A stretch of 64,000 nucleotides of DNA from Candidatus Eiseniibacteriota bacterium (GTDB lineage: Bacteria > Orphanbacterota > Orphanbacteria > Orphanbacterales > Orphanbacteraceae), in contig JAJCZU010000002.1 of NCBI GenBank assembly GCA_029262235.1, forward strand, positions 930,001-994,000, in the 5' to 3' direction. Made by a program: the position numbers and the translations under genes. This document shows, one piece after another, positions 22,572 to 29,049 of the stretch. The notes under the pieces are model-generated. The model worked only from the letters and a program-made list of their open reading frames with translations. It did not search any database and was not told where the DNA came from. The first letter of the stretch is position 1; each line of letters starts with the position of its first letter.

Positions 22572-25500
22572 ATGACGAAAAGGCTGTTAAGGCAGTCCTT
22601 TGTGTGGTGGTTCTTGGGTGGTGTGCGTGCGTCAGACGGGAAGTGGCAATTGACCCTGTTTCGATCAGCCTGGATAACAGCAACCGCGGTTGGATCTCTT
22701 CTTCTTTGTCTCCCGTCTTTGACGCGAGCCGACGATATCCAGCTCGAGTGGACGGCGCCCGGCGAAAACGCCTCGGGCGGCCGCGTAATCAGCTATGACA
22801 TCCGCTACAGCTCGACCCCCATCGGCGGGGACACGCTGACCTGGTGGAGCAGCGCCAGTCAGGCGATCGGCGAACCTTCGCCCGCCGACCCCGGAACCAC
22901 CGAGAACTTCCTGCTCGCGAATCTGTTCGGGAACGTCACTTACCAGATTCTCCTGCGATCTTCCGACGAAGTCGGCAATCAGTCTCCATTTTCGAACGTG
23001 GCCGTCGTCGGCGTGACCGACACGACGGGCGGCGGGTCCGATCCCGTGATCATCAGCGGCGCCGCCGTCGATTCGATTCAGGGAACGGGCGCCCGGGTAC
23101 GCTGGAGCACGAATATTCCCGCCGTCGGGTTCGTCCGCTACGGCGCAACCGCCGGATACGGCCAGACAACCTCGCCGAGCGGGCCCGCCACATCGCATAC
23201 ATCGATCCTGACGGGTCTGACAGCCGGCCAGAGCGTGCACTACCAGATCGTCTCCTACGACGGCGCCGAGCGGGACTCGACGCCTGACGCCGTCTTCGCG
23301 CCCGGAGATCTGCCTCCGGACAGACCCACGGGCGTGGGCGCGGCAGCCGGGCCTGGTCTCCTGGCAGTCGATTGGGATCCTGTCGGCGATTCCGACCTCG
23401 CAAAGTACCTGGTCTACTACGATGCCAGGTCCCCCGCGGACACGGGATGGGTCCTCGAAGACCAGTTTCACCCTTATACATCAGGAAGCGATCCGACCGA
23501 CTGGGAGGACGCCGACGCTCGTTTCGCCGTCGCACGCCCCCCCGGAGACCGGACCGTCTACTATGGCAGCCCCGGCGCGGGCACCGGCGTGGCGACCTAT
23601 AAGCCGGGCGGCAACGATCCCGCGTGGGACGACCTCGAGGTCAAGGGAGCCTTTCGGCTCGAATCCGGCGGCGATGCCGGCATCGTACTCCGGCGAACCG
23701 GCCAGTCGCATTACTTCGTCCGGTTTCGCGCCGGAGAGGCGATTTCGATAGGCGGCGTGGGCGCGTCGGTCGGTGCACTCTCCGAGGCGACACCGTTCGC
23801 CCCCGCTGCCAATCAATGGTATGCCTTCCGCGCCACGGCGTGGAACGATGGAGGGCAGGTACGGATCGGTTGCGCCATCTGGCCCGAGGGCGGCACGGAA
23901 CCGCTGCAGAATCAAGTATGGGCGCTCGGAAACGGCGCATCGCCCCTCCTGACGGGCGGCATCGGATTCATGGTCACCGGCTCGGCGGGTACGGAGTTCG
24001 ACGACCTGATCGTGAACGAACTTCCCGCCGCGACCTCCGCGCGCGATCTCGGCCAGTACACGACATGGCTGCACAGCGGCCTTTCGACTGACTCCGTCTA
24101 CTCCTATCGCGTGGTCAGCGTGGATCAGAGTGGTGCGCGCAGCATGGTGAGCCATCGCGCGAGCGCATCGCCGCTTCCGATCGATGTCGGCGACACGTCA
24201 CCGCCCGCGCGGATCAACGACTTCACCGCCACGAAAGGCGGGGGCCTCGGTCTCGTGAACGTCGCCTGGTCCGCCGTGGGTGACGACGGTTTGACCGGCA
24301 CCGCGTCCGCCTACGATCTTCGCTACTCGCTTTCACCCGTCACCGACGCGAACTGGACGAGCGCCACACGCGCGAATACCGGCGTTCCGAAATCCTCGGG
24401 CGCGGCGGAATCCCTGGTTCTGAGCCTCAGCGCCGGACATACGTACTACCTGGCCATCCGCGCTCTCGACGACGCGGGGAACGCTTCGCAGACATCCAAT
24501 CTGGGAACCGTGAACCTTCCCGCAGACGTGCAGGGGCCCGGCATTACCGGCGTCCGCACCGAATCGGTCGGCGTGCTCTCGGCTCTCGTGCGATGGGAGA
24601 CGAACGAACCGGCCACGAGTGAAGTTCGCTTCGGCTTGACGCCCGCCTACGAAATCGGCTCGGTCAGCAGTCAGGTTCTCACGACGACCCACACGATGGG
24701 CCTCTACAATCTGGCGCCTGAGACAGCCTACTACTATGAAGTCCACGCGTATGATTCGTTCGGAAACGAATCGAGTTCCGGCGGCCACTTCTTCCTGACG
24801 GGGGGAGAGGACGACAGCACGGGGCTCGCCATCCTGAACACGCAGGTGCTCGTGATCCGCGACACTTCGGCGTCCGTTTCGTTCGGTACGAATCTCGTCG
24901 CGCTCGGCGCCATCGAATATGGAACGACCTCCTCGTACGGCAGTGAAGTCGGCGGAGTCGCGTTCTCGAATCAGCACAGTTTCTCTCTCGCTCCTCTTCT
25001 TCCGCAGACCACGTACCACTTCCGCGGCCGCGCCGTTGCCAGCGGAGACACGACGTACAGCAATGACTTCGTCATCGTCACGGCTCCGCCGGGCGGTTTC
25101 GACAGCGATCCCCCCGTACTTTCCGCCATTGCGTCCGACAGCGTAACGACGAGCGGGGCGCGCATCGGCTGGTCGACGGACGAGCCTGCGCGCGTCTTCC
25201 TGGAGTACGGACTCTCCGAGTCCTACGGCCAGGCCACGACGCTCACTTCTCTCTACGCGACGCAGCACACCGTCCGCCTGGAAGGACTTGCGACCGGGCG
25301 CGAATTTCACTATCGCATTCACGCGGAGGATGCTTCGCAGAATCACACGATCTCCGAGGACTTCACATTCGTGACCCTTCCGGAGTCACTCGATACGTTC
25401 GGCCCTGTACTGAGCGACATCGGCGCAGTCTCCATCACGCCGGAAAGCGTCCATATCGTCTGGTCAACGGACGAAACCGCAGACGGACAGATCGAATACG

Positions 25501-27737
25501 GGACGTCGCTGCCGTACGCCAACGCGACCCCGCTTGCGGATTCGCTCAGTCTCGCGCACGACATCACGCTGTCCGAACTCACGCCGAACACGCAGTATCA
25601 CTTCCGCATTCTCTCGCGCGACGGCAAGGGGAACCTGACCCGCTCGAGCGACTTCACGTTTACGACCGAAAACGACGGCGACATCGATTCGATTCCGCCG
25701 GTCATTTCATCCATCGTGCTTTCCGATGCCACGTCGTCTTCGATCACTGTGACGTGGCTCACGAGCGAACCGGCCGCCGGCCAGATCGAGTACGGACTCG
25801 ACACGACCTACGGCTCGCAGACGACTCTCGAACCGGACTACGATACGGATCACGCGGTACAGATCGCGGGGCTCACGGCCGACGTCGTCTTTCATTACCG
25901 GATTCTTTCGCGCGACCCGTCGGGAAACCAGTCGCGATCCGGCGACAGAACATTCGTGCTGAATCCGAGCAGCGACACGACGCCTCCCGAGATCGAACAG
26001 GTGACGGTGATCGACGTGACGAGTCAGTCCGCACGCATCGCATGGAGCACGAACGAGAACGCCGAAGGTCAGATCGAATACGGGCTGACGGAATCGTACT
26101 CGTCAGCGACTCCGGTCGACACGGCGCACGTGACGGAACACGAGGTGCTCCTCGAGGGTCTCGAACGCGCGGCCACGTACCATTTCCGCGTCGTGAGCCG
26201 TGACCCAGCCGGGAACGTGAGCTTCAGCGACGACCTCGTGCTCACGACCTCGGGCGATGTCGACTCGATCGGCCCCGCAATGGAGAACGTCGACCTGATG
26301 GAAGTGGAAGAGGGAGTCGTGCAGATATCCTGGGACACGGACGAAGAGGCGATCGGCCGCGTCGAGTACGGCCTCGATTCGACTTCCCTTGCATTTTCCA
26401 CGTCGCTCGGAACGTCCTTTCTGACGGAGCACTTCTACGAAGTGGACGGCCTCGCGATCGGGCGCCAGTTCTTTTTCCGCGCGCTCGCGCGCGATCTGGC
26501 AGGAAACGAATCCCAGTCCGAAATCTACTCGGTCTGGATCGGCGATGCGCCCGATTCGCTTCCGCCGACATTCTCGGGTGACGTGATTACGGTCCCCGGA
26601 ATCAGCGAGACGGAGATCACGTGGATCACGGACGAACCGGCCGACAGCCGCGTCCTGTACGGACTCGATTCCACGGTTTCCAGCAGCACGTCGCTCGACG
26701 TGATCCGCGTCACGCTTCACCGCGTCACGCTCACCAATCTCCGGCCTGACGCGGACCATTTCTTCCGCCTCGAAAGTCGTGACGCCGCCGGCAACCTTTC
26801 GCAGAGCGAACTGCTGCAGTTCTCGACACTTCCCGATACCGTCAACAAGGCGCCGGCGCTCGAGTCGGTTGAAACGGCATTTCCCGTCGAAACCGTCGCG
26901 GTGCTCGCGTGGACAACGGATCTTTCGAGCACCGGCCAGATCCTGTACGGCGTGAGTACGGAAACATCGATCGCGAACGGACTCTCGGGAGTCTTCGGGT
27001 TCGAGCATGTCGATACGCTGGCCAGGCTCGAGCCCGAAACGCGCTACTACTATCGCATTCAGGGCGCCGGTGAGAACGGCATCTTCTTCCAGACCGCGCT
27101 CGATTCATTCTGGACGCCGGCGGATCGCACGCCGCCTCCGCCTCCGCCGTCATTCGGCGGCACGGAATCGTCGGCGGGGATTCAGATCGCATGGGCGGTG
27201 CCGGCGGAGGAGTCGCCGGCCACTTACGCCGTATTCCGGACGCTCGATGAAGGCGACGATGCCGTGTGGGAAAAGATAGCGGACGGCGAGGGAGCCGTTA
27301 CCGAAGTCATGGACAAGCTCGACGGCCTCGACCTTCGCGGCGTCGCAGCCGTTCGTTACGAAATCGCGCTCTACGACGCCTACGGGAACGAGTCGCGCTC
27401 CGAGACCATCGTGGTCTCGCTCGACAAGCTCGCCGTTCCGATCGTCCAGACGTTCCTGCTCCATCCGAATCGTCCGAACCCGTTCAATCCGACGACGGTG
27501 ATTCCGTTCTCGATTCCGGAGAGTGCGGGGGAGTCGCGCGTCAGAATTGCGATCTACAACATGGTCGGCCGTGAAGTCAGAACGCTCCTGAACGAAACGC
27601 GCGCGCCGGGAACGTATACGGACGTGGTGTGGAACGGCGTCGACCGGGTCGGCAAGAACGTACCGAGCGGTCGCTACTTCTATCGCCTCCAGGCGGGCGG
27701 GAAGACCACCGTGCGTTCGATGATCCTCGTTCGCTGA
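22572..27737 (+). CDS. Giant secreted Fn3/PAP-N-like repeat protein with FlgD-like C-terminal domain
   Basis: The protein has 1721 residues. A signal peptide ends around residue 52 (LLLCLPSLTRADD). The annotated ATG gives an unusually long pre-signal stretch; TTG 22650 would give a normal 27-residue signal. In order: an Fn3 domain (~55-145), one PAP-N-like repeat (~155-245), an Fn3 domain interrupted by a LamG/jelly-roll-like segment (~290-480), an Fn3 (~545-650), nine tandem ~92-95-residue repeats (~655-1515), a last Fn3, and a C-terminal FlgD-like domain with HPNRPNPFNPTTVIPFSIPE and SGRYFYRLQAGGKTTVRS. Likely a surface adhesin or matrix protein exported to the cell surface. The neighbouring EPS genes suggest a matrix role, which is inference. 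Confidence 0.85.
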   Translation: MTKRLLRQSFVWWFLGGVRASDGKWQLTLFRSAWITATAVGSLLLCLPSLTRADDIQLEWTAPGENASGGRVISYDIRYSSTPIGGDTLTWWSSASQAIGEPSPADPGTTENFLLANLFGNVTYQILLRSSDEVGNQSPFSNVAVVGVTDTTGGGSDPVIISGAAVDSIQGTGARVRWSTNIPAVGFVRYGATAGYGQTTSPSGPATSHTSILTGLTAGQSVHYQIVSYDGAERDSTPDAVFAPGDLPPDRPTGVGAAAGPGLLAVDWDPVGDSDLAKYLVYYDARSPADTGWVLEDQFHPYTSGSDPTDWEDADARFAVARPPGDRTVYYGSPGAGTGVATYKPGGNDPAWDDLEVKGAFRLESGGDAGIVLRRTGQSHYFVRFRAGEAISIGGVGASVGALSEATPFAPAANQWYAFRATAWNDGGQVRIGCAIWPEGGTEPLQNQVWALGNGASPLLTGGIGFMVTGSAGTEFDDLIVNELPAATSARDLGQYTTWLHSGLSTDSVYSYRVVSVDQSGARSMVSHRASASPLPIDVGDTSPPARINDFTATKGGGLGLVNVAWSAVGDDGLTGTASAYDLRYSLSPVTDANWTSATRANTGVPKSSGAAESLVLSLSAGHTYYLAIRALDDAGNASQTSNLGTVNLPADVQGPGITGVRTESVGVLSALVRWETNEPATSEVRFGLTPAYEIGSVSSQVLTTTHTMGLYNLAPETAYYYEVHAYDSFGNESSSGGHFFLTGGEDDSTGLAILNTQVLVIRDTSASVSFGTNLVALGAIEYGTTSSYGSEVGGVAFSNQHSFSLAPLLPQTTYHFRGRAVASGDTTYSNDFVIVTAPPGGFDSDPPVLSAIASDSVTTSGARIGWSTDEPARVFLEYGLSESYGQATTLTSLYATQHTVRLEGLATGREFHYRIHAEDASQNHTISEDFTFVTLPESLDTFGPVLSDIGAVSITPESVHIVWSTDETADGQIEYGTSLPYANATPLADSLSLAHDITLSELTPNTQYHFRILSRDGKGNLTRSSDFTFTTENDGDIDSIPPVISSIVLSDATSSSITVTWLTSEPAAGQIEYGLDTTYGSQTTLEPDYDTDHAVQIAGLTADVVFHYRILSRDPSGNQSRSGDRTFVLNPSSDTTPPEIEQVTVIDVTSQSARIAWSTNENAEGQIEYGLTESYSSATPVDTAHVTEHEVLLEGLERAATYHFRVVSRDPAGNVSFSDDLVLTTSGDVDSIGPAMENVDLMEVEEGVVQISWDTDEEAIGRVEYGLDSTSLAFSTSLGTSFLTEHFYEVDGLAIGRQFFFRALARDLAGNESQSEIYSVWIGDAPDSLPPTFSGDVITVPGISETEITWITDEPADSRVLYGLDSTVSSSTSLDVIRVTLHRVTLTNLRPDADHFFRLESRDAAGNLSQSELLQFSTLPDTVNKAPALESVETAFPVETVAVLAWTTDLSSTGQILYGVSTETSIANGLSGVFGFEHVDTLARLEPETRYYYRIQGAGENGIFFQTALDSFWTPADRTPPPPPPSFGGTESSAGIQIAWAVPAEESPATYAVFRTLDEGDDAVWEKIADGEGAVTEVMDKLDGLDLRGVAAVRYEIALYDAYGNESRSETIVVSLDKLAVPIVQTFLLHPNRPNPFNPTTVIPFSIPESAGESRVRIAIYNMVGREVRTLLNETRAPGTYTDVVWNGVDRVGKNVPSGRYFYRLQAGGKTTVRSMILVR
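24535..27120 (+). repeat. Nine tandem ~92-95-residue Fn3/PAP-N-like protein repeats
   Basis: Each unit follows the pattern: PPxI..I, then V.W.T.EPA.GQIEYGL...Y (positions 15-40 of the unit), then H.V.L.GL...T.YHFR, and finally S.D..GN.S.S. Units begin near 24535 and run to about 27120. Repetition is clear at protein level but the DNA is diverged, so these are old duplications. A related single unit closes the lipoprotein at 42590-44758. Confidence 0.8.
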
Positions 27738-27905
27738 CCCGCCGGGGGATGCCGCGTACGCCCCCCCTGCGCTGCACTCGCCCGGCACCGGAATCATCCG
27801 TCCACGCCCCCGCTTTCTTTCTATGCTAAAATGATGTCACACGCCTGCCCTGAGACCGTATCCTCCCTGTACCAGTTACCAGTTCCCCCGGGGGAGAGGA
27901 CGACC

Positions 27906-28967
27906 ATGAACACGCGCCGATCGATTACAGGCTTTGTCACCCTCGCTCTGACTCTTCTGGCAGCTCCCGCTCACGCGGCCGATCGCATGGTGTTGATCGA
28001 GCACTGGACGAACGATCAGTGAGGCATCTGCGGTTCGGTGGATCCGAACCTCAAAAATTTTATTTTCTCGAAGCCCGACATCGTGGCCATCGAGTACCAC
28101 ACGAATTTTCCGTATCTCGGGGACGTTTTCTACACGCCCAATCCGTCCGAGAACAACGCCCGCATTCAGTACTATCCCATCAACTTCGTTCCCAGCGTCC
28201 GATTCGACGGCCCTGCGAACGGGGGAACCAACCCCGCCAACTGGGAGGTTATCTACGATGCACGAAAAGCCGTGCCGTCCCGCATACGAATCGAGCTCAG
28301 CGGCTCGTGGGATCCTGACGCGGCCAAGACCAACGGGGCGCTCCAGGTTCGCCTGATCGCCGAGACGACGCTGGGCGGGGGCGACTGGAAACTTCGCGCC
28401 GCTGTCACCGAAAGCAACATCGATTACATGGCGGGGAACGGGATCAACGAACATCACCATGTCATGCGCAAGATGCTGCCTGACGCGACCGGCACTGCGC
28501 TGTCGTTCTCAGGACCGTACCCGGATACGATCGACGTACCGCTCACTTTCACGGTCGATCCTGCATGGGATCCCGCACACCTTGCCTTTGCCGTGTTCCT
28601 GCAGGATGACGAAACACAGGAGTCGGAGCAGAGCGCACTCCTGCGGCTGAACGACATTACGGTCGATGTTCCCGCCGGGGATACGCCGCCGACGACTTTC
28701 GCCATCGACGCCATCCGGCCGAACCCTTTCAATCCGAACGCCGTGATTTCCTGGCGCCGGGAAAGCGCGGGACCGATCGGCCTCACCGTGTACGACGTGT
28801 CCGGACGACTCGTGCGGACGTTATTGCGCGGTGAGACTTCGCAGGGCGGATCGATCGAGTGGAACGGGCGGACGGACACCGGAAGTGAAGCGGCGTCCGG
28901 GATCTACTGGTTCGTGCTGCAAGACGGGGAGTCCCGCATCGTGCGATCGGGCGTGCTCGTAAGGTAA
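27906..28967 (+). CDS. Predicted secreted selenoprotein, thioredoxin fold (Omp28-like), in-frame TGA at 28020-28022
   Basis: The start is ATG 27906 with GGGGGAGAGG upstream. Reading through the single TGA gives 353 residues in one frame. Residues 1-25 form a signal peptide (LALTLLAAPAHAAD). Then VLIEHWTNDQ-U39-GIC42: relatives of the Omp28/thioredoxin group have E.FTN..CGPC here, so Sec39 replaces the first redox cysteine of CxxC. About 50 residues later, INFVPSVRFDG fits the cis-proline loop of the thioredoxin fold. A beta-rich middle region follows, then a FlgD-like C-terminal domain (IRPNPFNPNAVISW to SGIYWFVLQDG). A stem-loop suitable as SECIS begins just after the TGA. A nonsense mutation is the alternative, but the frame, signal peptide and both motifs are intact on both sides. 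It is a probable periplasmic or surface thiol/selenol oxidoreductase. Confidence 0.72.
28020..28053 (+). promoter_or_regulatory. Candidate bacterial SECIS element following the in-frame TGA
   Basis: GGTTCGG at 28032-28038 pairs perfectly with CCGAACC at 28044-28050 around the 5-nt loop TGGAT (28039-28043). Sixteen nucleotides separate the TGA from the loop, and a G is in the second loop position. UGAGG at 28020-28024 can also pair with CCUCA at 28049-28053, which would put the UGA at the base of the stem. As I recall the bacterial SECIS rules (loop 3-14 nt, stem 4-16 bp, 16-37 nt spacing, G in the first two loop bases), it fits. Confidence 0.6.
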
Positions 28968-28973
28968 GGGAAG

Positions 28974-29049
28974 TGGTGAGCCGTGCAGGGGTCGAACCTG
29001 CGACCTACTGATTAAAAGTCAGTTGCTCTACCAACTGAGCTAACGGCCC
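28974..29049 (-). tRNA. tRNA-Lys (anticodon TTT)
   Basis: On the minus strand the gene starts GGGCCGTTAGCTCAGTTGG and has the anticodon arm CTGAC-TTTTAAT-CAG with anticodon TTT. The T arm contains GGTTCGACC. The acceptor stem GGGCCGT pairs with ACGGCTC (one G-U), the discriminator is A at 28977, and CCA is encoded at 28974-28976. It lies seven bases beyond the 3' end of the selenoprotein gene, on the opposite strand. Confidence 0.96.

Follow-up and report, generated by a model that had tools for sequence, protein, structure and literature searches.

The gene at positions 27906 to 28967 (forward strand) of the window, which is the whole stretch of 64,000 nucleotides that was analyzed, very probably codes for an Omp28/HBP35-like oxidoreductase with a thioredoxin fold, which is exported to the cell surface or out of the cell and in which UGA codon 39 is decoded as selenocysteine (Sec). 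The gene starts with an ATG at 27906, which is preceded by a Shine-Dalgarno-like sequence, GGGGGAGAGG (27890 to 27899, forward strand), and its frame stays open until the TAA stop codon at 28965 to 28967. The TGA at 28020 to 28022 is the sole in-frame interruption. When this codon is read as Sec, the gene is complete and gives a protein of 353 residues, which begins with MNTRR, has a predicted cleavage site after AHA and continues as ADRMVLIEHWTNDQ-U-GIC. The residues EHWTN-DQ precede the TGA, Sec39 is the first residue of the motif U39-G-I-C42, and Cys42 (28029 to 28031) would be the resolving cysteine of this UxxC pair. The sole ordinary gene that can be called 3' of the TGA is a 309-codon fragment starting with GTG at 28038, and this fragment has neither the signal peptide nor the active site. 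A tRNA-Lys gene lies 3' of the gene on the opposite strand (28974 to 29049).

The split frame with its single TGA is real, and the Shine-Dalgarno sequence, signal peptide, EHWTN and GIC of the original prediction were all found as described there. The split frame is more than a chance arrangement, because relatives carry TGA in the same column and because the dN/dS ratio is low before as well as after the codon. In the comparison with G001, which represents another species of the same genus, dN/dS is 0.18 overall, 0.15 before the TGA and 0.19 after it. The assignment of UGA39 as selenocysteine can be regarded as established as far as a sequence is able to establish it, because four lines of evidence agree: the decoding machinery of the genome, the homologues, an RNA hairpin and the selection acting on the frame.

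The source genome (4.47 Mb in 11 contigs, 95.5% complete) contains all four genes for which the original prediction had suggested a search: selA (538 bits), selB (370 bits), the tRNA-Sec gene selC (70.7 bits, anticodon TCA/UCA) and selD (349 bits), the last with an in-frame TGA of its own, read as ...CGUAAK. Of the two selD genes, it is this one (L048, G000:C3:455857-456780, ...TCGUAAK) that encodes a selenoprotein; the other, L049, is free of in-frame stops and sits inside a frame of 1018 amino acids. The selA gene is present in 27 of the 30 other genomes with TGA forms versus 19 of the 40 Cys-only genomes (Fisher p 1.7e-4), where the latter class is defined among the matches listed and some of its genomes may hide a further TGA form. 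The three TGA-form genomes in which selA was not found are all fragmented assemblies of 340-830 contigs.

Seven genomes, all belonging to one GTDB family, were examined for this small phylum. The same in-frame TGA occurs in seven further genes from five other genomes of the family, as UGIC in G001, USVC in G004, USGC in G002, USGC and UAQC in G005, and UPGC and UPSC in G006, and paralogues such as L021 (CPSC) and L029 (CPPC) have Cys in the same column. The genome itself has two Cys-type Omp28/thioredoxin paralogues beside the Sec form, L132 on contig C1 and L133 on contig C8 (CPPC and CTPC, respectively). Of 386 genomes, 62 yielded relatives in a search with a domain profile, and Sec forms are spread over about 31 genomes. 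The column of codon 39 was expected in the original prediction to contain Cys in relatives, and this is the case: in 146 distinct aligned homologues it is occupied by TGA in 42, by Cys in 102 and by another residue in 2. The second cysteine, Cys42 here, is invariant across all Sec homologues found (42 of 42). These data, together with the presence of the machinery, support the earlier proposal that Sec39 is the active-site residue.

On a quick tree (LG+G4, SH-aLRT support only, founding GOS_C sequences left out), which does not give the direction of the changes, parsimony places 24 exchanges between Sec and Cys, at least 13 of which are forced by well-supported branches. Apart from L113, no gene in a set of 125 has a TGA at any other place within the homologous domain. 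In L113 (G140:C176:178767-179417) the TGA is found two residues past the first Cys, giving CGUAAC rather than UxxC, which may represent a shift of the Sec position. Several Omp28-type genes, TGA forms as well as Cys forms, are clustered at L121/L148 (G110:C186) and at L115 (G064), and distant Cys-type relatives (CTYC; L173 and L174) are present on two archaeal MAG contigs. A scan of the collection with a 3-row alignment matched G001, G004 and, beyond these, just two distant loci from archaeal MAGs; the 10-row alignment A2 is too divergent for such a scan.

A bSECIS-like hairpin, GGUUCGG-UGGAU-CCGAACC (28032 to 28050, forward strand), directly follows the UxxC codons. It has a stem of 7 bp and a loop of 5 nt, which begins 16 nt past the UGA. 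The published constraints for a bSECIS element are a loop of 3-9 nt, a stem of 4-16 bp, a spacing of 16-37 nt, a G in the first two loop positions and a minimum free energy of -7.5 kcal/mol or lower (PMC13188914). The hairpin agrees with all of them, with a G at loop position 2, -10.4 kcal/mol and the spacing of 16 nt. Its z-score against synonymous shuffles is -2.9, and the constrained hairpin ranks in the top 2.5% of the gene; the gene is rich in GC, and the plain minimum free energy of the 45 nt 3' of the UGA does not stand out in it (rank 95 of 338). Across the whole set of homologues, strict hairpins follow 18 of the 42 TGA codons versus 7 of the 102 Cys codons (p 6e-11) and versus 4% of other codons in the same genes (p 8e-15).

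One pair of the stem is U-A, A-U and C-G in G000, G001 and G004, respectively. On the 5' side the paired base sits at the silent third position of a Gly codon, and on the 3' side it occupies the second position of a codon for Asn (AAC), Val (GTC) or Ser (AGC), so that silent substitutions accompany the amino-acid changes. This covariation is not significant alone (87 of 500 shuffles reach it), as three sequences lack power. In 8 of 39 Sec homologues, some of them from the same GTDB family, no predicted hairpin reaches -7.5 kcal/mol within the published constraints, and an Rfam search of the region returned no SECIS family match. In a second Sec subgroup of the GTDB family (L022, L023 and L025 from G005, G006 and G002, respectively), the predicted hairpin is longer, about 14 bp, with a shifted loop and a GG at a later loop position, which places it outside the standard bSECIS constraints.

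The interruption could in principle have a more trivial origin. Many homologues have the Cys form, and TGC differs from TGA by one base, so the TGA might have arisen through a sequencing mistake, or through a nonsense mutation that recently hit a gene of the Cys type. The sharing of the codon by the seven further genes of the family and by dozens elsewhere, the low dN/dS after it and the hairpin next to it already contradict this explanation, and its probability is negligible. It is also very improbable that the UGA terminates translation, so that the product is a short peptide, or that a shorter protein starts at GTG 28038 and stays in the cytoplasm. An open reading frame of 309 amino acids does start there, and shorter cytoplasmic products have been reported from the 3' part of the HBP35 gene (PMC2907840). 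Nevertheless, such a product would contain neither the signal peptide nor the active site, and the 38 codons before the TGA, which are aligned in all relatives, are under purifying selection.

The frame would be equally open if the UGA encoded another amino acid, by means of genome-wide recoding or a suppressor tRNA, but this hardly merits consideration. Elsewhere in the window TGA acts as a normal stop codon, as in the neighboring gene ending at 27737, and 42 of the 70 frames of at least 300 amino acids end in TGA, many of the 70 being spurious. The genome possesses tRNA-Sec, selA and selB, and the non-TGA rows of the alignment have Cys in 102 of 104 cases.

The architecture of the protein is that of an exported enzyme, as the original prediction had it. 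A probable Sec-pathway signal peptide, MNTRRSITGFVTLALTLLAAPAHA, with an AxA-type cleavage site occupies 27906 to 27977 (forward strand), and hydrophobic N-termini are aligned in all relatives. It is followed by a thioredoxin-fold/Omp28-type domain (residues 27-250; 27984 to 28655), which matches PF11551 with 27.8 bits, below the cut-off of 34.9; a match to DUF1223 was also below cut-off. PF11551 is matched at an E value of 0.001 or better by 27 of 41 Sec homologues. Pro96 (28191 to 28193), in the sequence VPSVRFDG, is invariant in relatives, resembles the cis-proline of thioredoxins and faces the active site. The AlphaFold model is of moderate confidence (pLDDT 75, falling to 67 in the segment that surrounds the active site). 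Its best PDB match in Foldseek is HBP35 of P. gingivalis, over nearly the whole length (E 6.9e-14, TM 0.54/0.60, probability 1.00), which favors the predicted thioredoxin fold; Omp28 (2r2c, TMt 0.67) and PorU (6za2) are also returned.

The C-terminal domain (residues 270-353; 28713 to 28964, forward strand) is similar to the FlgD Ig-like fold and to type A sorting domains of the type IX secretion system (T9SS). Its FlgD-like character, predicted earlier, is borne out by PF13860 (FlgD_ig), with 29.1 bits over a cut-off of 27. The T9SS sorting models score just below their curated cut-offs (PF18962, Por_Secre_tail, 22.9 versus 27; TIGR04183, 21.4 versus 23). The genome encodes a homolog of the T9SS translocon protein SprA (419 bits, or 556 with a neighboring match, versus a cut-off of 200), and related C-terminal tails occur in more than 100 places of the genome. 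FlgD_ig was detected in 16 of the 41 Sec homologues and the T9SS tail TIGR04183 in 18, so that the combination of Sec, secretion and a type IX-like tail is less unusual than originally thought. The 5' neighbor (22572 to 27737) encodes a secreted protein of 1721 amino acids with many Fn3-like domains and the same FlgD/T9SS-like C-terminus; its counterpart in G001 is 91% identical and adjacent to the Sec gene, and in G004 the two are not adjacent.

By combining these observations, it is possible to describe how the protein might be made and might act. The SelA, SelB and tRNA-Sec of the genome would decode UGA39 under the guidance of the hairpin directly 3' of it. The protein would then cross the inner membrane by means of its signal peptide, and its C-terminal domain would probably send it, via the type IX system, either onto the cell surface or out of the cell. 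There, Sec39 would attack or release disulfides, or other oxidized substrates, and Cys42 would resolve the intermediate, as in thioredoxin. The protein is likely to be an exported, probably surface-exposed thiol-disulfide oxidoreductase, because of the fold match to HBP35, the SprA homolog and the genome-wide reuse of this type of C-terminal domain. We infer the thiol-disulfide chemistry, and likewise the T9SS export, the latter from domain scores that are borderline.

There is a smaller, though appreciable, chance that the selenoprotein has a different role: it might be a peroxidase, might bind metal, hemin or selenium, or might be retained in the periplasm. We know of no settled function of Omp28 proteins, and the scores of the T9SS tail are borderline. 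HBP35 also binds hemin (PMC2907840). On the other hand, UxxC combined with an invariant cis-Pro is the active-site plan of thioredoxin, and the thioredoxin activity of HBP35, which reduces insulin, depends on its two cysteines, C48 and C51 (PMC2907840). A surface thiol-disulfide oxidoreductase remains the preferred function.

We lean slightly towards the broader view that T9SS-exported, surface-displayed thioredoxin-like Sec enzymes form a large and mostly uncatalogued group in environmental bacteria, with repeated Sec/Cys exchange and an extracellular redox role. If so, Sec outside the cell might resist over-oxidation. Automatic annotation would break off such genes at the UGA or give them a wrong start there, and the only curated model misses the present branch by 160 bits, so that the number of these selenoproteins in environmental genomes is probably underestimated. 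The repeated Sec/Cys switches, and the Sec and Cys paralogues within one genome, offer a natural comparison for asking why selenium is used in an exported redox enzyme.

The original prediction considered the protein likely undescribed, which does not hold at the family level. GOS_C ('hypothetical protein GOS_C'), a thioredoxin-fold UxxC protein whose function is not known, was predicted in 2008 from marine metagenomes (Zhang and Gladyshev, PMC2398784), and Table 1 of a 2026 catalogue equates it with NF045500 (PMC13188914). The NF045500 model, 'Omp28-related selenoprotein' (Omp28_seleno), matches 10 of 10 members of the close alignment. The present protein and this family share the thioredoxin-like fold and a UxxC motif with Cys homologues, and residues 21-255 of the protein are homologous to profile positions 33-275 (E 3e-10). 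However, the protein scores 40 bits, far below the curated cut-off of 200, and is therefore best described as a divergent relative of the NF045500/GOS_C family, as judged by profile comparison. The C-termini also differ, being FlgD/T9SS-like here, whereas positions 266-313 of the model match tandem repeats of about 37 residues that may be dockerin-like. No member above the cut-off was found in the genomes searched, though many carry TGA forms; this and the sub-threshold score place the present Sec branch and most Sec homologues outside the curated family. In the literature search, no paper was found on an Omp28 selenoprotein or on a type IX-secreted selenoprotein, and the deep-Sep paper does not mention Omp28. 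The divergence of this lineage, the broad distribution of Sec forms and the number of Sec/Cys switches appear to be new.

Among the other known systems, Omp28 (PF11551, NF033782; 2r2c) resembles the middle of the protein, at a score below the gathering threshold. It is named a lipoprotein, whereas the signal peptide here has no lipobox cysteine, and the active site here contains Sec. The Sec-containing thioredoxins and DsbA/DsbG-like proteins have the UxxC active site and the thioredoxin fold in common with the present protein (PMC13188914), but they belong to other sequence families and the catalogue gives them no T9SS-like tail. Similar in overall plan is HBP35 of Porphyromonas gingivalis (5y1a), which has a signal peptide, a thioredoxin-like domain with a redox pair spaced by two residues, and a T9SS C-terminal domain that is needed for its transport to the surface (PMC2907840). 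The two proteins are about 14% identical, and Cys48 and Cys51 of HBP35 stand where Sec and Cys are found here.
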